From Actinomycetota bacterium (GTDB taxonomy: Bacteria > Actinomycetota > Nitriliruptoria > Nitriliruptorales > JAHWKO01), in NCBI GenBank assembly GCA_019347675.1, contig JAHWKW010000008.1:1-64000 (forward strand): a stretch of DNA of 64,000 bases, written 5' to 3'. Positions 46,152 through 57,228 of the stretch are shown piece after piece. The first letter of the stretch is position 1; each line of letters begins with the position of its first letter. The notes under the pieces were generated by a model. It ran no database searches, was not told where the DNA came from, and saw only the letters and a list, made by a program, of their open reading frames with translations. A program made the position numbers and the translations under genes.

Positions 46152-47300
46152 CTACAGCGCCACTGCTCCCCGCAGGGCGTCCAGGGTCAGCCGCCATAGC
46201 TCCATGTGATCCGGGGGCGGATCGCGCTCGGTGTGCAGCCGGTTGGTGAGGAGGACGACGACCGCCTCCGCCCGGGGCACCACAGCGATCTCACAGCCGG
46301 TGAAGCCTCCGTGACCGAAGCCGACCCTCTCGCGTCCCCAGTCGCAGCGACGTGTCCACCACCCTCGGCCCTGCCCGCGGTCGTAGGGCTCACGGAGGAA
46401 CCGTTCCAGGGTCGAACGATCCCAGATGCTCGCCCCGCCGTTCAGCGTGTCGGACAGCGCGCCGCCGAACGCAGCGAGGTCCGATGCGGTGGAGAAAGCA
46501 CCTGCCGATCCCGCCACGCCTCCGAAAGAGTGAGCGGCGTTGCCGTCCTGTGCCTCACCGACGAGGGTGTGGGTTCGCCAGTGGCGGAAGTCGCCCGGGG
46601 ATCCGTCCACGGCCTCGGGGTCGTTCGTCTCGATCATCCGCTGCTCCGTGCGGTTGCCCGTCGAGGTGGCGGCGATCAACCCACGGGTCTGTTCCAGCGG
46701 CTGGAAGCACGTGGCCGTCATGCCGTGCGGCGTGAAGATCTCCCGTTCGCAGAACCGGTCGAGCCGCTCACCGGTCACCTGTTCGACGATCCCACCGAGG
46801 AGGATGAAGCCGAGATCCGAGTAGCGCCGGCGACGGTCCGCGCGATGCCTGACGCCGTGGTGGCAGACCCACTCGAGCGCCTCGTCGCGCTGCTTGGCGT
46901 AGAGGTAGACGGGCTGCCACGCGGCGAGGCCGCCTCGGTGGGTGAGCAACTGATCGACGGTGAGGGGAGCCGGGCCCGATCCGAGCGCGGGGAGGAAGGT
47001 CTTCGCCGGCGTGTCGAGGGCGATCTCACCGTCCGCCTCGAGCCGCATGATCGCCGACGTGGTGAACACCTTCGTGATCGACGCGATGTCGAAGATCGTG
47101 TCCTTGGTCATCGGTCGCGGGTGCTCGATCGGACCTTCGTGGTCGTGGGTCTGCGCCCACCCGTAGGCACGGTGGAAGACGGCGACTCCACCGCGCGAGA
47201 TCAGGGCGACGGCCCCTGGAGTGACCGGGCCGGGGACGAGGTCACCGAGACTTCGGTGGAGCAACTCCAGCGGGTCCACATCCGAACGGGAGCCGGTCAC
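46152..47300 (-). CDS. Serine hydrolase (beta-lactamase/penicillin-binding protein family)
   Basis: 382 residues, no signal peptide, so probably cytosolic. Class C/esterase EstB-like motifs: the SITK nucleophile box in FDIASITKVFTTSAIMRLEA, Tyr in RRYSDLGFILLGG, and a late FGHGGFTGCEI giving the HGG (KTG-equivalent) box. In several genomes such hydrolases accompany amino-sugar recycling genes, where they remove peptide or amide groups. It lies 55 bases after nagA and is probably the operon's last gene. Role in muropeptide trimming is inference. Confidence 0.8.
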   Translation of the reverse strand: MTGSRSDVDPLELLHRSLGDLVPGPVTPGAVALISRGGVAVFHRAYGWAQTHDHEGPIEHPRPMTKDTIFDIASITKVFTTSAIMRLEADGEIALDTPAKTFLPALGSGPAPLTVDQLLTHRGGLAAWQPVYLYAKQRDEALEWVCHHGVRHRADRRRRYSDLGFILLGGIVEQVTGERLDRFCEREIFTPHGMTATCFQPLEQTRGLIAATSTGNRTEQRMIETNDPEAVDGSPGDFRHWRTHTLVGEAQDGNAAHSFGGVAGSAGAFSTASDLAAFGGALSDTLNGGASIWDRSTLERFLREPYDRGQGRGWWTRRCDWGRERVGFGHGGFTGCEIAVVPRAEAVVVLLTNRLHTERDPPPDHMELWRLTLDALRGAVAL

Positions 47301-47355: not shown

Positions 47356-48465
47356 TCAGGTTTGGGCTCCGCTCACGAGCACCCGGCGAAGTTCCAGGCG
47401 ATCGTCGAGGACGACCAGATCGGCGCGTGCGCCCGGCCGGAGCACGCCGAGATCGCCACGCTGCAGTAGGCGAGCGGGGACGGCCGCGGCCGCGTCGAGG
47501 GCGTCTGCGAGTGGGACGCCGAGTTGGTGCAGGTTGCGGACGGCATCGATCATGGTCAGGGCGCTCCCGGCGAGGGTGCCGTCCTCGCGGCGGGCCTCCC
47601 CGTCGACGACCTCGACGGTGACGTCGCCGAGCCGGTAGCTGCCGTCACCGACGCCAGCGGCGGCGATGGCGTCGGTGACGAGCGCGAGCCGCCCCGCTGC
47701 GGCGCGCCACGCGAGCTTCACGGTCTCTGCCGCGAGGTGGTGGCCGTCGACGATCAACGTGACCACGACGTCGTCTCGGGTGAGGGCGACGCCGACGATC
47801 CCCGGCCTGCGAGGGATCATCCGCGTCATCGCGTTGAACAGATGGGTGACGGCTCGCACCCCTCGGTCGAACGCCGCATGGGCGGTCTCCGCGTCGGCGT
47901 CGGTGTGTCCGGCGGAGACCAGGATGCCCCGGCCACGGAGGAGATCGACGAGCTCGAGGGCCCCCGGCAGTTCCGGCGCGAGGGTGACCGTCGTGACGTG
48001 CCCGGCCGACACGATGCGCTCCAGCAGGCCACGTTCGGGATCTCGACGCGGCCCGGCCGGGTGCGTGCCAAGCCGCTGGCGCGACAGGAACGGGCCTTCG
48101 AGGTGGGCACCGACGATCCGGGGCAGGACCTCACCCCCGCCGCCTCCATGGCGGCGGGCCGTCTCCATCACCCGCACCGCGGCGACGAGGCGCTCCTCGG
48201 GGGCGGTGATGAAGGTCGGCTGGTATGCCGTGACACCGGTGCGCACCAGCGCCTCGCCCGCCGTCCGGTACCCGTCCGGATCCGCGCCCAGCAGGTCGAC
48301 GCCGCCGAACCCGTTCACCTGGAGATCGACGAAGCCGGGGGCGGCGAGGCCTCCTCGCCCCGCGGGGCTCACCCCCACCAGGGCGACCCGGCCCTCGTCG
48401 ATCTCGACGTCGCCGGGCACGATCTCCCCGTCGACGAGTGCGGCGGCCGCCCCGAGACGCGTCAT
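47356..48465 (-). CDS. nagA: N-acetylglucosamine-6-phosphate deacetylase
   Basis: 369 residues. Metal and catalytic residues: GFVDLQVNGFGGVD replaces the usual HxH region of amidohydrolases as in NagA, Glu in GAHLEGPFLS, His in LVSAGHTDADAETA and THLFNAMTRM, catalytic Asp in LALVTDAIAAAG. It converts GlcNAc-6-phosphate (product of MurQ) to glucosamine-6-phosphate. The start overlaps the anmK stop by ATGA. Product would feed glycolysis via NagB, not present in this window. Confidence 0.93.
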   Translation of the reverse strand: MTRLGAAAALVDGEIVPGDVEIDEGRVALVGVSPAGRGGLAAPGFVDLQVNGFGGVDLLGADPDGYRTAGEALVRTGVTAYQPTFITAPEERLVAAVRVMETARRHGGGGGEVLPRIVGAHLEGPFLSRQRLGTHPAGPRRDPERGLLERIVSAGHVTTVTLAPELPGALELVDLLRGRGILVSAGHTDADAETAHAAFDRGVRAVTHLFNAMTRMIPRRPGIVGVALTRDDVVVTLIVDGHHLAAETVKLAWRAAAGRLALVTDAIAAAGVGDGSYRLGDVTVEVVDGEARREDGTLAGSALTMIDAVRNLHQLGVPLADALDAAAAVPARLLQRGDLGVLRPGARADLVVLDDRLELRRVLVSGAQT

Positions 48466-49634
48466 CCCGGCCCTTCGATCACGAGCCGTCGCGGACGGCG
48501 CTCCGCCGGAGCAGGGACGGTGAGGGGGCCGCGGCCCGGCGTGAGCGAGCCCAGGATCCGGCTGCCGCGCGCGCCGGTGCAGCTCGGGAGGGTACCGGCG
48601 ATGCCGTTCCAGCTGAGGAAGCCGAGGACGGCGAAGGCGTACGCCTCCTTGCTGTCGGGGGGCAGCCCCCAGACGTCAGAGGTGACGACGTCGGCCGGGG
48701 CGAGCTCGGCTGCGAGCATCCGCATGAGCGTCGCGTTGCGGACCCCGCCGCCGCTTGCGGTGACGCGCCCGACCGCGAACGGGCGGAGCGCGTCGGCGAT
48801 CACCCGCGCGACGGCGGCGGTGAGCGTGGCGAGGACGTCCTCGAGCTCGCCGACGGGCGCCCGCGCGAGCGTCTCGTCGAGGTATGGGCGGTTGAAGCGC
48901 TCCTTCCCGGTCGTCTTCGGAGGTGACCGCCGGTAGTAGGGATCGTCGAGGAGCACGTCGAGCAGCACGTCGTTCACCCGCCCGCGGGCCGCGAGCGCTC
49001 CGCCCTCGTCCCAGCCTGCGCCGTCGCCGTGCCGGCGGACCGCGGCGTCGAGGAGCGCGTTCGCTGGTCCGACGTCGAAGGCGACCGGATCGGTGTCGGG
49101 CGTGACGACGGTGAGGTTCGCGATCCCACCGAGGTTGAGAGCCGCCTCCGGCTGCTCCGAGCCGCCGAGGAGGAGCGCGTCCACGAGGCTGACCAGCGGC
49201 GCGCCCTGACCTCCCGCGGCGACGTCGCGGACGCGGAGATCGGAGACCACCGGCAGACCGGTGCGTTCGGCGATCCATGCGGGGTTGCCGAGCTGCAGGG
49301 TGCCGCGCACCGCTCCGTCCTCCACCCAGTGGTGGACGGTCTGTCCATGCGAGACGACGAGGTCGGCGCGGTCGGTGCTGAGCGCATCGATGCCAGCGGC
49401 GCCCGCGTTCGCGAACGTCTGGCCGAGTTCGCTGTCGAGCCTGCACAGCTGCGCCGCGGTCAGGCTGTGGCCGGCCAGCACGCTGTCGAGGAGGTCGCGC
49501 ACGGCGTCTGGGAAGGGATGCGTCGTGGCCCCCAGCGTCCGGACGCGGATGCTGTCGTCGTGGAGGCGCACGTCGGCGGCGGCGACGTCGACGGCATCCG
49601 CGGACGTGCCCGACATGAGCCCGATCACGATCAT
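48462..49634 (-). CDS. anmK: Anhydro-N-acetylmuramic acid kinase
   Basis: 390 residues. Family signatures: IGLMSGTSADAVDVAAAD, VSHGQTVHHW, LGNPAWIAERTGLPVVSDLR, GGQGAPLV, ALNLGGIANLTV, FDVGPANALLD and WDEGG. It opens the 1,6-anhydro ring of anhMurNAc and phosphorylates it to MurNAc-6-phosphate. The usual SLDGVD appears as SADAVD, keeping the second Asp. The ATG at 49634 overlaps the murQ stop (ATGA); longer open sequence upstream is antisense-like and rejected. Confidence 0.94.
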   Translation of the reverse strand: MIVIGLMSGTSADAVDVAAADVRLHDDSIRVRTLGATTHPFPDAVRDLLDSVLAGHSLTAAQLCRLDSELGQTFANAGAAGIDALSTDRADLVVSHGQTVHHWVEDGAVRGTLQLGNPAWIAERTGLPVVSDLRVRDVAAGGQGAPLVSLVDALLLGGSEQPEAALNLGGIANLTVVTPDTDPVAFDVGPANALLDAAVRRHGDGAGWDEGGALAARGRVNDVLLDVLLDDPYYRRSPPKTTGKERFNRPYLDETLARAPVGELEDVLATLTAAVARVIADALRPFAVGRVTASGGGVRNATLMRMLAAELAPADVVTSDVWGLPPDSKEAYAFAVLGFLSWNGIAGTLPSCTGARGSRILGSLTPGRGPLTVPAPAERRPRRLVIEGPG

Positions 49635-50542
49635 CGCGGCGGGACGCCGACAGCGGCCCGGACCGCGCCCCCGGCTTCGTCGAGCCGCCGTCGTGCCGTC
49701 TCCGCATCGACCCCGGCGGCGATGCTGACGATCGCGGTCTTCACGTCGCCGTCCGCCGCGTCCAGCGCCTCGTCGACCGCGGCCGGACCCGCACCGGTGG
49801 CTTCGGCGACGATCCGGCGGGCCCGCTCCCGGAGCTTGTCGTTCGTCGCCTGCACATCCACCATCAGGTTGCCGAAGGTCCTGCCGAGCCGGACCATCGC
49901 GACGGTCGAGATCGTGTTGAGCACGAGTTTCTGCGCCGTCCCGGCCTTCAGGCGTGTCGAGCCGGCGATGACCTCTGCACCGACCGGGATCTCGATCGGA
50001 TGGTCGACCCGGGCGCTGAGCGGCGTGCCGGGGTTGCAACTCACGCCGACGGTGAGGGCTCCGGCCGCGCGCGCCGCATCGACCGCTGCCAGGACGTAGG
50101 GGGTGCGGCCGGACGCGGCGATCCCGACGACCGCGTCCCCGTGGTCCACCCCCGACTCGATGATGTCCCGCTCCGCGGCGTCGGTGTCGTCCTCGGCCCC
50201 CTCGACCGCGGTTTTCCCGGCGTCGGGGCCACCGGCGAGGAGGGCGACGACACGACCGGGAGCGACACCGAACGTCGGGCCGCACTCTGCGGCGTCGAGC
50301 TGCGCCAGCCGCCCCGACGTTCCCGCACCGACGTAGACCAGCCTCCCACCGACCCGCAACCGCTCGACGATCGCGTCGATCGCCGCGGTCAACGGGTCCG
50401 TGGCCGTCGCGACCGCGGCGGGGACGGTGGCGTCCTCGCGGTTCATGAGGCGGACGAGCTCGCCGGTCGGGCGCAGGTCCAGGTCGGCGAGGTCGGGGCG
50501 GACCTGCTCGGTGAGGAGGTCGCCGACGTCGCGGTCAGCCAT
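49631..50542 (-). CDS. murQ: N-acetylmuramic acid 6-phosphate etherase
   Basis: 303 residues. A SIS sugar-phosphate isomerase domain with RLVYVGAGTSGRLAQLDAAE, GPTFGV, the catalytic Glu in AAECGPTF, VEGAEDD, and TRLKAGTAQKLVLNTIST. It cleaves the D-lactyl ether of MurNAc-6-phosphate to GlcNAc-6-phosphate plus D-lactate. The start overlaps the preceding gene by 8 bases. This enzyme links the two kinases upstream to NagA and explains the D-lactate oxidase encoded at the head of the operon. Confidence 0.95.
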   Translation of the reverse strand: MADRDVGDLLTEQVRPDLADLDLRPTGELVRLMNREDATVPAAVATATDPLTAAIDAIVERLRVGGRLVYVGAGTSGRLAQLDAAECGPTFGVAPGRVVALLAGGPDAGKTAVEGAEDDTDAAERDIIESGVDHGDAVVGIAASGRTPYVLAAVDAARAAGALTVGVSCNPGTPLSARVDHPIEIPVGAEVIAGSTRLKAGTAQKLVLNTISTVAMVRLGRTFGNLMVDVQATNDKLRERARRIVAEATGAGPAAVDEALDAADGDVKTAIVSIAAGVDAETARRRLDEAGGAVRAAVGVPPR

Positions 50543-51533
50543 CTCGTTCCTCTCCGGTCAGAGCCGCGGTGAGCGCGTCCCACACCGCCTCGGGATCGCG
50601 GGTGGCGAGGTAGTCCATGTGCCCGCAGGCCTCGTAGCCCCAGGTCCAGATGTCGTCGACCCCCTCGGCGCGTGCGGCGCGCACGGCGGCGTGGATGTCG
50701 TCGCGGTCCTCGGGACCGAGCCCGAACCCTTGGATCCAGATCTGCGGGGTGAGATGGTGGGCGTCGGCGAGGTCACGGACCTTGCGGGCGAAGCGAGCGA
50801 CGAACGCGGACGCGGGCTGCCCGAAGACCTTCCAGTACGGGTCGGTGGCGATGGTGTCGAGCCCGTCGGCGGTCGCGACCCCAGCCCAGTCGCGCAGGCC
50901 GAGACTGCCCTCGACGAGGGGCAGTAGGCAGACGGTGCTGCGTCCACCGCGCGACGACACGTGGGCAACGAGCTCACGCACGAACTCGACCAGGCAGCGC
51001 TCGCGGAACGCGACGACCTCGCCGGTCAGCTCGCGCGGCATGTCGCCACCGTGCTCCTCGCGGAACCGCGCCCGGCAGGCGCCACACCGGCAGGCCCAAC
51101 GGTCCTCGTCGAGGCCGAACCGCTCCGGATGCGCCCAGTGCGGCTCGTCCCAGAAGATCCGGTCCGCTCCCGTCTCGACCGCGGTGTCCGCCCACCGCTT
51201 CACGAGCTCGCGGAACGCGTTGCGGTTCAGACAGGCGGCGCCGACGCGGCGGTCGTTGTCGAAGACCTGACCCAGCTCGGGATGGGTGGCGGTGAACAGG
51301 CTCTCCGCCTCCCCTCCGAACGCGTGGCCCACCCCCCACGGGCCGATCTGGACCTCGAGCCCGACGTCGTGGGCGGCCGCGACGAGCCGGCCCATCTGCA
51401 GGGGGTAGTAGTTGAGGTCGTTCTCGCTCATCGTGTGCAGCACAGCGGTGAAGCCACGCGACGCGAGGTCGTCCATGTCGGCTTCCACATGGCGCAGGAT
51501 CCGGTTGCCGAAGTACGAGGCGCCGATCGCCAC
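50535..51533 (-). CDS. Uncharacterised barrel-type protein with CxCxxC motif
   Basis: 332 residues, no signal peptide. The N-terminus GASYFGNRILRHVEADMDDL and the strand-helix repeats (GFTAVLHTMSEND, GLEVQIGPWGVG, ADRIFWDEPHW, WIQGFGLGPEDRDDI, DDIWTWGYEACGHMDYL) suggest a TIM-barrel glycosidase-like fold. DEPHW could supply a catalytic acid pair. WACRCGACRARFREE is a Zn-finger-like insert seen in other putative bacterial glycosidases. It sits between the ABC permeases and murQ, so a role on muropeptides or MurNAc glycosides is likely. No named family recognised. Confidence 0.6.
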   Translation of the reverse strand: MAIGASYFGNRILRHVEADMDDLASRGFTAVLHTMSENDLNYYPLQMGRLVAAAHDVGLEVQIGPWGVGHAFGGEAESLFTATHPELGQVFDNDRRVGAACLNRNAFRELVKRWADTAVETGADRIFWDEPHWAHPERFGLDEDRWACRCGACRARFREEHGGDMPRELTGEVVAFRERCLVEFVRELVAHVSSRGGRSTVCLLPLVEGSLGLRDWAGVATADGLDTIATDPYWKVFGQPASAFVARFARKVRDLADAHHLTPQIWIQGFGLGPEDRDDIHAAVRAARAEGVDDIWTWGYEACGHMDYLATRDPEAVWDALTAALTGEERDG

Positions 51534-51548: not shown

Positions 51549-52376
51549 TCAGCCTTTGACGGACCCGGCGATCATGCCCTGGGTGAGCCGCCGGTGGACG
51601 AAGAGGAAGAACACGACGACCGGCAAGGTGAAGAGCACGCTCGCGGCCATGATCCCTCCCCAATCGATGTGTGCAAGGCCCTCGAACCGCGCGAGCGCGA
51701 CGGGGAGGGTGTAGGTCTGCTCGTCGGTGATGAACGTGAGCGCGACGAAGAACTCCCGCCACGCAGCGATGAACGCGAAGACGCCGACGGCGGCGAGGCC
51801 GGGTCCGGCGAGCGGCAGGACCACCCGGAGCATCGCCCCGACGCGCGTCGCCCCGTCGACCATCGCCGCCTCCTCCAGCTCCTGCGGGATACCGAGGAAG
51901 AAGCCGCGGAGGATCCAGATCGACAGCGGCGTCGTGAACGCCATGTAGGTGACGACGAGCCCGAGGAGCGAGTCGAGCAAGCCGAGGTTCCGCATGACGA
52001 TGAACAGCGGGATGATGAGCGCCGCGATCGGGAACATCTGCGTGCTGAGCACGACGAGGACGAGGTAGCGGCGCAGCGGCAGCTTGAAGCGGGCCAGCGA
52101 GTAGCCGGCGAGCGCCGCGACGCTGACGCCCGCGACCGTGGTGGTCACCGCGACGATCAGCGAGTTCCGCAGGTACGTCGCGAAGCCGCGGCGGAGCACG
52201 TCGACGTAGCGTTCGAGCACCAGTTCGCTGGGGATGAAGATCGGGGTCGCGGTGAGGATCTCCGGGCGGGGCTTCACCGAGGTGAGGATCATCCACAAGA
52301 ACGGGAAGACGGCGAACAGGCCGACCGCCACTGCGGAGACGGCGATGCCGACGCGTCCGACCGTCGGGCGGATCAC
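51549..52376 (-). CDS. Sugar ABC transporter permease (MalG-type)
   Basis: 275 residues from the GTG at 52376, which overlaps the first permease's stop. Six transmembrane helices. The EAA loop, EEAAMVDGATRVGAMLRVVLPL, contacts the ATPase. The FPFLWMILTSVKP opening and the C-terminal VFFLFVHRRLTQGMIAGSVKG are MalG/CUT1 hallmarks. It pairs with the next permease. A longer reading to 53273 is rejected because it runs over the first permease. Confidence 0.92.
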   Translation of the reverse strand: MIRPTVGRVGIAVSAVAVGLFAVFPFLWMILTSVKPRPEILTATPIFIPSELVLERYVDVLRRGFATYLRNSLIVAVTTTVAGVSVAALAGYSLARFKLPLRRYLVLVVLSTQMFPIAALIIPLFIVMRNLGLLDSLLGLVVTYMAFTTPLSIWILRGFFLGIPQELEEAAMVDGATRVGAMLRVVLPLAGPGLAAVGVFAFIAAWREFFVALTFITDEQTYTLPVALARFEGLAHIDWGGIMAASVLFTLPVVVFFLFVHRRLTQGMIAGSVKG

Positions 52377-53350
52377 AGCTGCTCGTCCTCGTCTCTGGCG
52401 ACGCGGATGTACACCAGCGTGAAGACGACGAGGACCACGAACAGCGTGACCGCCAGCGCCGAGCCCATCCCGAAGTTCAGGCGGGTGAACGCCTCCCGGT
52501 AGACGGTGACGACGATCACCTCCGTGCGGCGTGCCGGTCCTCCACCGGTCATCACCATGACCTGGTCGAAGATCTTGAAGTCCCAGATCGTCGATATCAC
52601 GAGCAGGACGAGGATCAGCGGCTTCAGCATCGGAAGCGTGACGTAGCGCAGACGCTTCCACGCGGTGGCGCCGTCGATCTGGGCCGCCTCGTGGACCTCC
52701 TTCGGGATCGACTGCAACCCTGCCAGCAGCGAGATCGCGACGAACGGGAACGACTGCCACACGACGACGAGCCAGACGACGAAGAGGGCCGGCACGCGGG
52801 CGTTGAACCACGGGTAGCCCGCGAACGTCTCCAGTCCGACCCCGGCGAGCGCCCAGTTCACGATCCCGTACTGGTCGTTGAACATCCACTTCCAGACGAT
52901 CGTCGCCGCGACCGCGGGCACCGCCCACGGCAGCAGCACCAGGACTCCCAGCAGCACCCGGCCGCGGAACCTCTGGTTCAGCAGCAGCGCAACCGCCAGT
53001 CCCAACAGCATGGTCCCGGCGACGGCCGAGAGCCCGAGAAGCGCCGTCTGGACGAAGACCATGCGCAGGTGGCTGTTGCGGAGCAGCTCGATGTAGTTCC
53101 CGAGCCCCACGAAGTCCATGTCGCCGGTGACCAGCGACTGCAGCCCGGCGTCGTGGACCGACAGCCAGAAGGTGCGCCCGAGCGGGTAGAGGATAACGCC
53201 GAAGATGACGATCACGGCGGGCACGACGAGCACGATCGGCAGAGCCCGGGATTCGAACCACGTCCGGTCCCACCTCGCCTGCGGCGGCGCCGGCCCGCCG
53301 GGCCGCCGCAGACGTGGGTCTTGCGTCGGGGTCTGTGCCGGTGCCGACAC
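52373..53350 (-). CDS. Sugar ABC transporter permease (MalF-type)
   Basis: 325 residues, six transmembrane helices after a Pro-rich N-terminus. EAA loop: KEVHEAAQIDGATAWKRLRY. LLPWAVPAVAATIVWKWMFN and NYIELLRN are typical of CUT1 first permeases. With the second permease it forms the membrane channel for the sugar bound by the lipoprotein encoded upstream. No ABC ATPase gene is in the operon, so a shared MsiK-like ATPase is presumed. Confidence 0.92.
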   Translation of the reverse strand: MSAPAQTPTQDPRLRRPGGPAPPQARWDRTWFESRALPIVLVVPAVIVIFGVILYPLGRTFWLSVHDAGLQSLVTGDMDFVGLGNYIELLRNSHLRMVFVQTALLGLSAVAGTMLLGLAVALLLNQRFRGRVLLGVLVLLPWAVPAVAATIVWKWMFNDQYGIVNWALAGVGLETFAGYPWFNARVPALFVVWLVVVWQSFPFVAISLLAGLQSIPKEVHEAAQIDGATAWKRLRYVTLPMLKPLILVLLVISTIWDFKIFDQVMVMTGGGPARRTEVIVVTVYREAFTRLNFGMGSALAVTLFVVLVVFTLVYIRVARDEDEQL

Positions 53351-53359
53351 GGACGTTCC

Positions 53360-54646
53360 TCAGCCGGCGAAGGCCTCGTTCATGCGGTCCGCGACCTCGT
53401 TGAGGGCCTCCTCGACGGTGCGCTCACCTCCAAGGATCTGCTCCATCGCGGTGACGAAGACGCCTTCACCCTCGAGCGTGCCCCACGCGCCCGACGCCGG
53501 GTAGGTGCGGGAGTGGTCGCGCAGCTGCTCGGCGAAGGGACTGTACAACGGGTCGTCGAGCAGCCCGGAAGCCTCGATCCCGCTCTCGGTCCCCGGAAGG
53601 AAACCGAGTTCCGTCGCGAACTCCGCGACCCGTTCCTCCTCCAGCATGTGGCTGATGAACTGCTGGGCGAGGTCGGGGTTGTCGCTGCCCTCGAAGACGA
53701 CGAAGTGGCTGCCTCCGGCGAACGCGGCGCGGTTGCCGGCCGGCCCTTCGGGGGTCAGGACCGCCTCGACCTTGCCCTCGAGGTCCGGGGCGCTGGCGAG
53801 GATGGCGGACAGATCCCACCCCCCGCCGATCATCATCGCGAAGTCGCCGGCCGCGAAGGCCTCGCGCAGGTCGGCGGAGTTCCACCCCAGCGCGCCTTCC
53901 GGAGCCCAGCCACGCTCGAACAGGTCCGCGTAGGTGGTCCAGGCCTCGACCGCCTCGGGCGAGTTGATCCTCGACTCCCATGTGCCGTCTGTCTCGACGG
54001 CGATCTCACCGCCCCACTGCCAGATCATCGGCAGGTACAGGTGCGTGTACCCGCCGATCACCCCGAACGGGAAGAGGTCGGTCTGTTCGTCGATCACCTC
54101 GCCGGCCCGGACGAGTTCGTCCCAGGTCTGTGGCGGCTCCAACCCGAGATCCTCGAAGACGTCGGATCGGTAGATCAGCGCACGCGCACCTGCGTACCAC
54201 GGGGCGCCCAGCGTCTCACCCTCGATCGTCCCGCTCTCGACGAGGCTCTCGACGAAGTCCTGCTCGCCGGTCTGTACGGCAGCCAGTGCGCCCATCTCGC
54301 CGAACTCCGGCGTCCAGGTGGTACCCATCTCGGCGACGTCCGGCGTGCGGTCACCGGCGATCGACGTGACGAACTGGTCGTGCGCTGCCGGCCAGGGGAC
54401 GAACTGCAGGTCCACGGTGGCGCCGGTGTCTTGCTGGAAGGCTTCGACCTGGTCGCGGACGATGTTCTCGACCGCCTCCGTGCCCGGCTGCATGATCCAG
54501 ACCTCGATGCTCCCAGCAGCGGCGTCGCCCTCTCGACCGTCAGGCAGCTGATCGGTGTCCGTCCCCGGCTCGGTGCCGCCACAGGCGGCGAACACCAGCA
54601 ACAGAGCGGCGATCGCCGCCAGCTTGGGTCGTGTTCGTTCCATCAT
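53360..54646 (-). CDS. Sugar-binding lipoprotein of ABC transporter
   Basis: 428 residues. Signal peptide with lipobox VFAACGGT, then a periplasmic-binding-protein fold of the CUT1 class: SIEVWIMQPGTEAVENIVRD, AGDRTPDVAEMGTTWTPEFG, FAAGDFAMMIGGGWDLS, GSHFVVFEGSDNPDLAQQFI. By operon context the ligand is MurNAc, anhMurNAc, a GlcNAc-MurNAc disaccharide or a related cell-wall sugar. Its ATG overlaps the kinase stop. Confidence 0.9.
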   Translation of the reverse strand: MMERTRPKLAAIAALLLVFAACGGTEPGTDTDQLPDGREGDAAAGSIEVWIMQPGTEAVENIVRDQVEAFQQDTGATVDLQFVPWPAAHDQFVTSIAGDRTPDVAEMGTTWTPEFGEMGALAAVQTGEQDFVESLVESGTIEGETLGAPWYAGARALIYRSDVFEDLGLEPPQTWDELVRAGEVIDEQTDLFPFGVIGGYTHLYLPMIWQWGGEIAVETDGTWESRINSPEAVEAWTTYADLFERGWAPEGALGWNSADLREAFAAGDFAMMIGGGWDLSAILASAPDLEGKVEAVLTPEGPAGNRAAFAGGSHFVVFEGSDNPDLAQQFISHMLEEERVAEFATELGFLPGTESGIEASGLLDDPLYSPFAEQLRDHSRTYPASGAWGTLEGEGVFVTAMEQILGGERTVEEALNEVADRMNEAFAG

Positions 54647-55662
54647 TCCTCTCCCGTCTGGGACACTGCATGCGTCCCGGTTGGTTCGTTCGTCGGTCGT
54701 CTCCCCACTCCGTGACGGTGGAGGAGGAGACGTTCGTGGCAGGTGCGGTCATCGCGCGCGAGCAGAGCCGCGCCGTCGAGCGGATCTCCCTGTGGCGGGG
54801 TGACAGCGGCTGTGGGTGCGAGCCGTGCGAGCTGTTCCCGGAAGGGATCGACGAGCAGATCGCGGTTGGAGAAAAGGCCGCCGGCCCACGACACCGCTAC
54901 AGACCAGGAGGCGGCATCCGATCGCGGTGTGCGCGCCCCGAGCCGTTCGACGGCCGCAGCCGCGCTCCGGGCGAGATCTTCGGCGGCGTGCGTCCAGATC
55001 CTCTGTGCGATCTCGTCGCCGGCACGGGCCGCAACCGCCACCGCGTCGCTGAAGCTGGCGACGAGGCGTGCAGGGTTGGTCTCCCCGTGGATACGGGCAG
55101 GCAGGTTCTGCAGCGGCCCGAACCGATCCTCGGCGAGCTCGACGAGCACGGTGGGCGCGCCGCGACCATCGCGGCGGGCGAGCGCAGCAGCGAGCCCGGA
55201 GCGCCCGATACGGAAGCCGCTGCCGGCGTCCCCCAGCAGGTAGCCCCAACCGTCGACGTGCACCGGCTCGCCGGCGGGGGAGACACCGAGCGTGGCCGCG
55301 CCCGTCCCTGCGAGCACGACGACGCCGGGGCGCCCGCCGAGCGCCCCCGCGTGAGCGATCGTCACGTCACTGGCAACGACCGATCTCGCCTGCCCGTGCA
55401 GCTCGCCGAGGACCTCGCCGACCCTGTCACGCGTCCTCGACGCCTGGCGCACGCCGGTCAGGCCGAGCGCCGCGCCCTGAACCGGCGGAGGACCCAGACG
55501 CTCGGTGAGCCGCCGGAGCGTGTCGACGACCGCCTGCTCACCGTCCAGATCGATGACCGTCACCTCCGTCGCCTCCGTCACGACCTCCCCTGGCGTGCCG
55601 TCGACCACGACCACACCGCGGCAGCTCGTCCTGCCGAAGTCGTACGCGACCACAGCGGTCAT
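54643..55662 (-). CDS. BadF/BadG/BcrA-family sugar kinase, probable MurNAc/GlcNAc kinase
   Basis: 339 residues from the ATG at 55662. The ASKHA phosphate-1 motif is VVAYDFGRTSCRGVVV, phosphate-2 is VVVLAGTGAATLGVS, and the adenosine region SWAGGLFSNRDLL is near the end. GWGYLLGDAGSGFRIG is the signature shared with N-acetylglucosamine and muramic acid kinases (MurK of Clostridium acetobutylicum is of this family). Probably phosphorylates incoming MurNAc and/or GlcNAc at O6. The GTGTGA context and 4-base overlap with the binding-protein gene show coupling. Confidence 0.8.
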   Translation of the reverse strand: MTAVVAYDFGRTSCRGVVVVDGTPGEVVTEATEVTVIDLDGEQAVVDTLRRLTERLGPPPVQGAALGLTGVRQASRTRDRVGEVLGELHGQARSVVASDVTIAHAGALGGRPGVVVLAGTGAATLGVSPAGEPVHVDGWGYLLGDAGSGFRIGRSGLAAALARRDGRGAPTVLVELAEDRFGPLQNLPARIHGETNPARLVASFSDAVAVAARAGDEIAQRIWTHAAEDLARSAAAAVERLGARTPRSDAASWSVAVSWAGGLFSNRDLLVDPFREQLARLAPTAAVTPPQGDPLDGAALLARDDRTCHERLLLHRHGVGRRPTNEPTGTHAVSQTGEE

Positions 55663-55729
55663 CGCGAACTCGGCGGCCAGCTGCCGCCCCGACGGCAAGT
55701 CGTCACCGACCCCCAGGCTGGCGATGCGA

Positions 55730-57148
55730 TCATGCGTCGCCGCCCTGGTGGAGTCGTACGGGCGGCCGCGGACCTCGCCTCTCGACGGTCACCTTCCCCG
55801 GGTTCAGGATGCTCCCCGGGTCGAAGGCATCCTTGACCCAACCGTGCACGTCAACGCCGGTCTGGCCCAACTCGCGCGCCAGGTGAGCGCGCTTGAGGAC
55901 ACCCACACCGTGCTCGCCGGTCACCGTGCCTCCGAGGCGCAGCGCGAGCTCGACGATGTCGTCGAACGCCGCACGAGCCGCTGCCACCCCGGAGACATCG
56001 TCGCGGTCGAACACGATCGTCGGATGCATGTTGCCGTCCCCCGCATGCCCGAACGTGCCGATGACCACCCCGCGCGCGGCGGAGATCTGCTCGATGCCGG
56101 CCAAGAGGTCCGGGACGCGTGCCGGCGGGACCGCGACGTCGTCGAGGAGCGTCGCACCCTGCCGTTCGAGCGCCTCGTACGCGAACCTGCGGGCTGCCAT
56201 CAGTTCGTCGGCCTCGTCCCGGTCCGACGACCTGGCGACGAACACGGCCCCAGCACCGCGACAGCACCGTTCGATCGTCTCCAACTCTTCTCCCGCCTCC
56301 GCGCCTGCGACGTCGGATTGGGCAACCAGCAGGGCGCCCGTATCCGGGCCGAACCCCATCCGCTTCCACTCGTCGATCGCCTGGATGGTCGTGCGGTCGA
56401 GCACCTCGAGCAGTGCGGGCACCGTCCTGCGCATGATCCGGGCGATGGCGTCGCCACATGACGCGAGGGCTCCGAACGTCGCCACGAGCGTGGCGGGAGG
56501 GGGACGGCGCGGGCGGAGACGGAGCGTCGCCTGCGTGATGATGCCGAGGGTCCCCTCCGAACCGACGAAGAGCGCGACGACGTCGTAGCCGGCGACGCCT
56601 TTGACCGTCCTCCGTCCGAAGCGGGCGACGCGGGCGTCGGCGAGGACGACCTCCAGGCCGAGAACGAAGTCGCCGGTCACGCCGTACTTCACGCAGCAGA
56701 GTCCGCCGGCGTTCGTCGCGAGGTTCCCGCCGATCGTGGAGAACTCCCGGCTCGCCGGATCTGGCGGGTACCACAGCCCGTGAGCGGCCACCGCCGCCGC
56801 CAGCGCGGAGTTCAGCACTCCCGGTTCGACGACGGCCAAGAGGTTGTCGGGGTCGATCTCGACGATGCGGTCCATCCGCATCAGCGACACGATGATGCAT
56901 CCGTCTATCGCGTTCGCCGCCCCGGACAGGCCCGAGCCGGCGCCCCGTGGCACCACCGGCGTACCCGACTCGGCGGCGATCCGCACGACCGTCGCCACCT
57001 CCTCAGCGTCGCGTGGCAGGACGACACAGGCGGGATCGCCGGCCTCGGTGAGCCCCGCCCGATCGCGCCGATAAGAGCCGAGGACGTCCCGGTCGGAGAT
57101 GACCGCGTCTGCGGGCAGGACGACGCGGAGATCGTCCACGACGGTCAC
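55730..57148 (-). CDS. FAD-linked oxidase (GlcD/D-lactate dehydrogenase type)
   Basis: 472 residues from the GTG at 57148 with GGGAGG 6 bases upstream. PCMH FAD domain: VVPRGAGSGLSGAANAIDGC, REFSTIGGNLATNAGGLCCV, KYGVTGDFVLGLEVV, GSEGTLGIITQATLRL; C-terminal cap FGHAGDGNMHPTI and GTVTGEHGVGVLK supply substrate ligands. Family members oxidise glycolate, D-lactate or D-2-hydroxyglutarate. In an operon with MurQ, which frees D-lactate, D-lactate is the natural substrate. First gene of the operon. Confidence 0.87.
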   Translation of the reverse strand: MTVVDDLRVVLPADAVISDRDVLGSYRRDRAGLTEAGDPACVVLPRDAEEVATVVRIAAESGTPVVPRGAGSGLSGAANAIDGCIIVSLMRMDRIVEIDPDNLLAVVEPGVLNSALAAAVAAHGLWYPPDPASREFSTIGGNLATNAGGLCCVKYGVTGDFVLGLEVVLADARVARFGRRTVKGVAGYDVVALFVGSEGTLGIITQATLRLRPRRPPPATLVATFGALASCGDAIARIMRRTVPALLEVLDRTTIQAIDEWKRMGFGPDTGALLVAQSDVAGAEAGEELETIERCCRGAGAVFVARSSDRDEADELMAARRFAYEALERQGATLLDDVAVPPARVPDLLAGIEQISAARGVVIGTFGHAGDGNMHPTIVFDRDDVSGVAAARAAFDDIVELALRLGGTVTGEHGVGVLKRAHLARELGQTGVDVHGWVKDAFDPGSILNPGKVTVERRGPRPPVRLHQGGDA

Positions 57149-57228
57149 TGCAACCTCCCGGGCTCCACGCGACCGTAGCTGCTGTGAGTTCCTGACCCCC
57201 ATCCGAGGTGTGCCAGACCGGGGTCACG

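Follow-up and report, generated by a model that had tools for sequence, protein, structure and literature searches.

In GH42 beta-galactosidases, cysteines 113/153/155/158 hold a structural zinc, while Asn147-Glu148 provides the catalytic acid/base and Met304-Glu305 the nucleophile (PMC8573354). In GH20, the enzyme itself supplies no nucleophile; it is the substrate acetamido group that attacks, aided in the Vibrio representative by Asp437-Glu438, where loop 4 starts, and by an acid pair at loop 2 (PMC4752478). The locus described here lies in a window of 64,000 nucleotides, the whole stretch of DNA that was analysed, belonging to an actinomycetotal genome (G000). It encodes a protein, P0001, that we hold with moderate confidence to be an undescribed cytosolic glycosidase, built as a GH42-like, zinc-stabilised TIM barrel and most likely cleaving an imported disaccharide or short saccharide of N-acetylated amino sugars that derives from peptidoglycan. 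The genes of the operon are, in the order of transcription:

54643 to 55698, minus strand: BadF/BcrAD-type amino-sugar kinase, MurK/NagK-like (PF01869, E 2.6e-24)
53360 to 54646, minus strand: ABC sugar substrate-binding protein (PF01547, E 1.3e-43, and context)
52373 to 53350, minus strand: ABC sugar permease 1 (Pfam match and context)
51549 to 52379, minus strand: ABC sugar permease 2 (Pfam and NCBIfam matches and context)
50535 to 51533, minus strand: P0001, GH42-like TIM-barrel protein of 332 aa, founding sequence of its family (open reading frame, homologues, model and profile comparison)
49631 to 50542, minus strand: murQ, MurNAc-6-phosphate etherase (TIGR00274, 339 bits, above cut-off)
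48462 to 49634, minus strand: anmK, 1,6-anhydro-MurNAc kinase (PF03702, E 1e-112; NF007146 above cut-off; start deduced from the profile match)
47356 to 48465, minus strand: nagA, GlcNAc-6-phosphate deacetylase (TIGR00221, above cut-off)
46152 to 47300, minus strand: PF00144 serine hydrolase, PBP4B/beta-lactamase-like (Pfam and NCBIfam matches)

From the kinase to nagA, neighbouring genes are separated by gaps or overlaps of only a few bases, and co-transcription is therefore very likely; the PF00144 hydrolase is the probable final gene of the cluster. P0001 starts with GTG, with AAGGAG 6 nt upstream. Its 3′ end shares with the murQ start the eight bases ATGGCTGA, exactly the overlap given in the original prediction, and anmK shares four bases with the end of murQ. 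The BadF/BcrAD-type kinase belongs to the same Pfam family, PF01869, as Tannerella MurK (PMC5790795). P0001 is the sole gene of the operon without a match in Pfam or NCBIfam and, at the level of these two collections, its earlier description as the only operon gene without a known step holds. Two further observations concern its neighbours. No ATPase gene was identified adjoining the substrate-binding protein and the two permeases (51549-54646, minus strand), which probably form an undescribed importer for MurNAc-type saccharides. Moreover, 31 bases before the BadF kinase and on the same strand lies the end of a gene for a FAD-linked oxidase of GlcD/D-lactate dehydrogenase type (55730-57202, minus strand); this enzyme could oxidise the D-lactate released by MurQ.

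Of the 66 genomes of the class, 11 have a P0001 homologue; in a sample of 396 genomes from the phylum, 14 do, one of these homologues being a doubtful fragment. Further relatives were found in two Thermotogota MAGs (Mesoaciditogaceae), in two Eisenbacteria MAGs and in haloarchaea, where 11 plasmid records carry copies that are all labelled 'hypothetical protein'. Identity within the family ranges from 32 to 69% across four phyla, and P0001 is therefore not a chance open reading frame. A search of PDB sequences, with either P0001 or the family profile as query, returned no relatives. Judged against Pfam, NCBIfam and the PDB sequences, P0001 founds a small, conserved and undescribed family. Thirty residues are invariant across 32 family sequences, among them D129-E130-P131, C101, C148, C150, C153, C202, P232-Y233-W234, W266 and W298. 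Two stretches are of particular relevance to function:

51135 to 51149, minus strand: DEPHW motif, D129 to W133, at the end of strand 4 (conservation in 32 sequences; strand 4 comprises residues 125-129 of the model)
51075 to 51092, minus strand: CRCGAC, containing C148/C150/C153 (invariant in 32 sequences; aligned with the GH42 zinc cysteines)

The acid-rich DEPHW motif was thus correctly recognised from the outset; D129, E130, P131 and W133 are invariant and H132 nearly so, and D129 and E130 are predicted to form the catalytic pair. The only other invariant acids are E37 and D39, placed after strand 2, and E75. The four-Cys insert of the original prediction needs revision: CRCGAC is real, but it holds three cysteines (C148-x-C150-x-x-C153), and the likely fourth zinc ligand, the invariant C101, is found 47 residues upstream of C148. 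A fifth invariant cysteine, C202, is located at the end of strand 5.

The structural model of P0001 is a TIM barrel (pLDDT 88.4, pTM 0.89), which bears out the fold that had been proposed; a single-sequence AlphaFold model (pLDDT 57) was set aside and no inference was drawn from it. No signal peptide was seen and strand 1 starts at residue 3, in agreement with the cytosolic location suggested earlier. According to residue numbers compared with the listed model strands, most invariant residues fall at the C-terminal ends of the barrel strands, that is, on the active-site side of TIM-barrel enzymes. Fold matches in the PDB are mainly glycosidases, namely beta-amylase (GH14), GH20 (structures 8bal, 5a6b and 6yhh), GH5 and GH164. 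D-psicose/tagatose 3-epimerases are also among the best matches and score nearly as high, with TM-scores to solved structures of at most 0.67 among the matches listed. A BFVD search yielded generic phage and viral TIM barrels only.

The clearest relationship emerges from profile comparison. When aligned with hhalign, the P0001 family matches GH42 (PF02449) at 85-90% probability, with E-values of about 1e-6 to 6e-6 over 199-264 columns, figures that are approximate because the Neff of the alignments is low (about 2.5-2.9); six control comparisons stayed at or below 37%. The aligned region covers the 'HPE...V..D.R...C.N...FRE' motif; C101, CxCxxC and, in strand 6, the DPY all align with GH42. 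In other words, the two families have in common the TIM barrel and the C...CxCxxC cysteine pattern of the zinc site, with one cysteine upstream. C101, C148, C150 and C153, all invariant in the 32 sequences, line up with the GH42 zinc cysteines, and P0001 would bind zinc through these four residues. The glutamate at the end of strand 4 is kept as E130, whereas the preceding Asn of GH42 is replaced by the invariant Asp129, a correspondence drawn from motif and secondary structure, since the profile alignment is gapped there.

At the end of strand 7, where GH42 carries its nucleophile (Met-Glu), none of the 32 family members has an acid: residues 266-268 of P0001 read W-I-Q, and other members have W-Q-Q, W-V-P or W-F-Q, with Pro at the Gln position in one member. 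The C-terminal trimerisation and beta domains of GH42 are also absent, the 332 residues of P0001 making up one barrel. A PF02449 profile search gave no match for P0001 and weak ones for two family members (best E 0.0016), one of which scored 16 bits against a cut-off of 21. The absence of a strand-7 nucleophile and of the C-terminal domains, together with the sub-cut-off score, therefore places P0001 outside GH42. As judged from sequence, its family shares the GH42 scaffold and zinc pattern without being GH42.

Other families were also considered, and the profile comparison did not favour GHL10, GH18, NagZ or NamZ as the parent. GHL10 (PF02638) is the second-best profile match, at 37%, and P0001 has no PF02638 match; in G003 a GHL10 gene lies directly 3′ of the homologue, and in G037 and G012 one separates murQ from anmK. 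GH18 reaches at most 5%. For NagZ (GH3, PF00933) there is no Pfam match, the hhalign value is below 1% and KHFPGHG...DSH does not occur in P0001. Likewise, NamZ (GH171, PF07075) scores below 1% and its NamZ_N and NamZ_C domains were not found in P0001. What NagZ and NamZ have in common with P0001 is the pathway context and, often, the cluster. MupG (GH170), a 6-phospho-N-acetylmuramidase, is a cytosolic enzyme of MurNAc operons; its MupG_N domain (PF19200) was not seen in P0001, giving only weak, sub-cut-off N-terminal matches of about 60 residues in two Thermotogota members (E 0.007 and 0.03), and no PTS genes were found in the P0001 operon. GH20 (PF00728) shows no profile relation (hhalign 2.6%, no Pfam match), and we know of no Cys4 zinc pattern in this family. 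Nevertheless, it resembles P0001 in the Asp-Glu at the end of strand 4, in the acids after strand 2 and in a strand 7 without nucleophile.

In actinobacterial loci with enough flanking sequence, the second ABC permease lies directly 5′ of P0001, with the exception of G002 and G014, and this adjacency is also seen in bacterial loci in which murQ sits elsewhere. In most of the actinobacterial loci murQ follows directly 3′; adjacency of the two genes is seen in G000, G037, G039, G042, G053, G064, G012, G356 and four further contigs. Among genomes of the class that are at least 90% complete, P0001 is present in all 6 that have a full anmK and in 1 of the 27 that do not (Fisher p 6e-6, uncorrected for relatedness). 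In Mesoaciditogaceae, NamZ is encoded two genes from the homologue. A GNAT acetyltransferase of about 300-340 aa adjoins the homologue in Thermotogota and Eisenbacteria and also occurs within haloarchaeal clusters (L025:9097-10116, L027:1272-2300, L026:7036-7995, L028:7114-8004, L023:14830-15816); as a guess, it might re-acetylate amino sugars.

Haloarchaea have no peptidoglycan. Four of their clusters (type I) combine on plasmids a P0001 homologue with NagZ, NamZ and AnmK, and the Haladaptatus/Halorussus plasmid clusters add a serine hydrolase, a muconate-cycloisomerase-type protein and an oligopeptide-type ABC transporter (L037, L038, L039 and L040, with L031, L033, L034 and L035). This suggests that these clusters import and break down bacterial cell-wall fragments, and a literature search found no earlier reports of haloarchaeal peptidoglycan catabolism. 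A second unassigned protein of these clusters, HypX (about 400 aa; L037:4932-6170, L038:10053-11246), has an upstream Cys and CxCxxC and no Pfam match; profile comparison gave no support for HypX as a P0001 paralogue (hhalign 4.9%). In the type II haloarchaeal loci, the homologue is accompanied by a sulfatase, a GH97 protein, a four-carbon acid sugar kinase and an aldolase. Since, in addition, the homologues of G002 and G014 lack murQ and anmK neighbours, the family may hold more than one specificity.

On these grounds, glycosidase activity of P0001 is likely. The ABC importer encoded just upstream would bring in the substrate, probably GlcNAc-MurNAc or GlcNAc-anhydroMurNAc, and the sugars set free would pass to the BadF kinase, AnmK, MurQ and NagA. 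E130 would act as the general acid/base, while D129 would orient the 2-acetamido group of the substrate as an internal nucleophile, like the Asp-Glu pair of GH20; by this analogy, we propose that the cleavage of a 2-acetamido sugar is substrate-assisted; the exact bond is likewise an inference. NagZ or NamZ is present in several of the same clusters, so that cleavage of GlcNAc-MurNAc by P0001 would often be redundant. Furthermore, substrates may differ, given the homologues without murQ/anmK and the loci with a four-carbon acid sugar kinase and aldolase. A more far-reaching proposal, which we put forward tentatively, is that a GH42/clan-A-type barrel lost its strand-7 nucleophile, exchanged Asn-Glu for Asp-Glu and became a new glycoside hydrolase family that cleaves N-acetylated cell-wall sugars with the help of the substrate acetamido group, serving cytosolic peptidoglycan catabolism in bacteria and in peptidoglycan-free haloarchaea.

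The original prediction had cast P0001 as a replacement for NagZ. Family searches of the window genome revealed one GH3 protein (G000:C23:42858-43982, 375 aa). It contains KHFPGHG...DSH, shows no evident signal peptide and scores 167 bits against the NCBI NagZ model, below the cut-off of 207. A NagZ-type GH3 lies about 5 kb from the homologue in G037 and G003, and NagZ is close by in the haloarchaeal clusters as well. With NagZ in its own genome and in the same clusters, strict replacement is therefore not the general role of P0001. It is possible in G039 (one contig, 97% complete) and G042 (98% complete), which carry P0001, murQ, anmK and nagA and in which family searches found no NagZ-type GH3, GH20 or NamZ. 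Taken together, it is unlikely that P0001 functionally substitutes for NagZ by acting, in organisms that lack it, as the cytosolic beta-N-acetylglucosaminidase for GlcNAc-(anh)MurNAc. The accompanying claim of a new glycoside hydrolase family fares better: a GH-like TIM barrel without known family is well supported by the fold matches, by the outlying GH42 profile score and by the importer/murQ/anmK/nagA context, and only the NagZ role fails as a general statement. We regard it as improbable, too, that P0001 acts on other sugars, N-acetylated or uronic (for instance chitobiose or other amino-sugar glycosides), as a glycosidase recruited into MurNAc operons. The loci of G091 and G077, which consist of importer, P0001 and nagA with no murQ on the available contig, would fit it, as would the type II haloarchaeal loci and one Thermotogota locus with a GlmD-like SIS protein, a BadF kinase and GH4; the close linkage to murQ/anmK in most Actinomycetota and in the type I haloarchaeal clusters speaks against it.

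The fold similarity to epimerases raises the question of whether P0001 is rather a non-glycosidase sugar enzyme of TIM-barrel type (epimerase, isomerase or lyase) acting on MurNAc or a lactyl intermediate. A weak AP_endonuc_2 match (E 0.0011, in the A1 scan) and the invariance of E37, D39 and E75 besides D129/E130 point in the same direction. Epimerases, however, bind their metal through Glu, Asp, His and Glu at strand ends, and such a site is not evident in P0001, no His being invariant across the 32 sequences; moreover, the clear profile match is to GH42. Evidence against a hydrolase, as named beforehand, would have been a strong match with some known non-glycosidase family; none turned up. 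We consider the non-glycosidase explanation quite unlikely. Finally, the strong co-occurrence with anmK, whose product has anhydroMurNAc as its known substrate, could reflect a cytosolic anhydro-forming enzyme, in which the DE pair and the acetamido group cut MurNAc-GlcNAc by attack of the C6 hydroxyl and deliver anhydroMurNAc to AnmK. One acid with substrate assistance would be chemically enough, and G046, which has murQ, NamZ and NagZ and no full-length anmK match, is also without P0001. Imported GlcNAc-anhMurNAc explains the association with anmK equally well, however, and at L020 and L054 P0001 and murQ are found with no anmK adjacent; to our knowledge, no TIM-barrel enzyme has anhydro-forming chemistry of this kind, and this role appears highly improbable.

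The reading of P0001 as a GH42-like glycosidase for imported peptidoglycan saccharides is the one that we retain. As its relatives lie in similar clusters, even in haloarchaea that have no such wall, the family probably serves a previously unassigned step of cell-wall recycling. Neither Pfam nor NCBIfam has a model for the family, although its genes are linked with MurNAc catabolism in Actinomycetota and, on archaeal plasmids, with peptidoglycan-degradation clusters. If active as proposed, P0001 would be a further enzyme of cell-wall recycling. It would also illustrate how a double-displacement barrel can turn into a substrate-assisted one, and point to a way in which wall-less archaea may live off bacterial cell walls.
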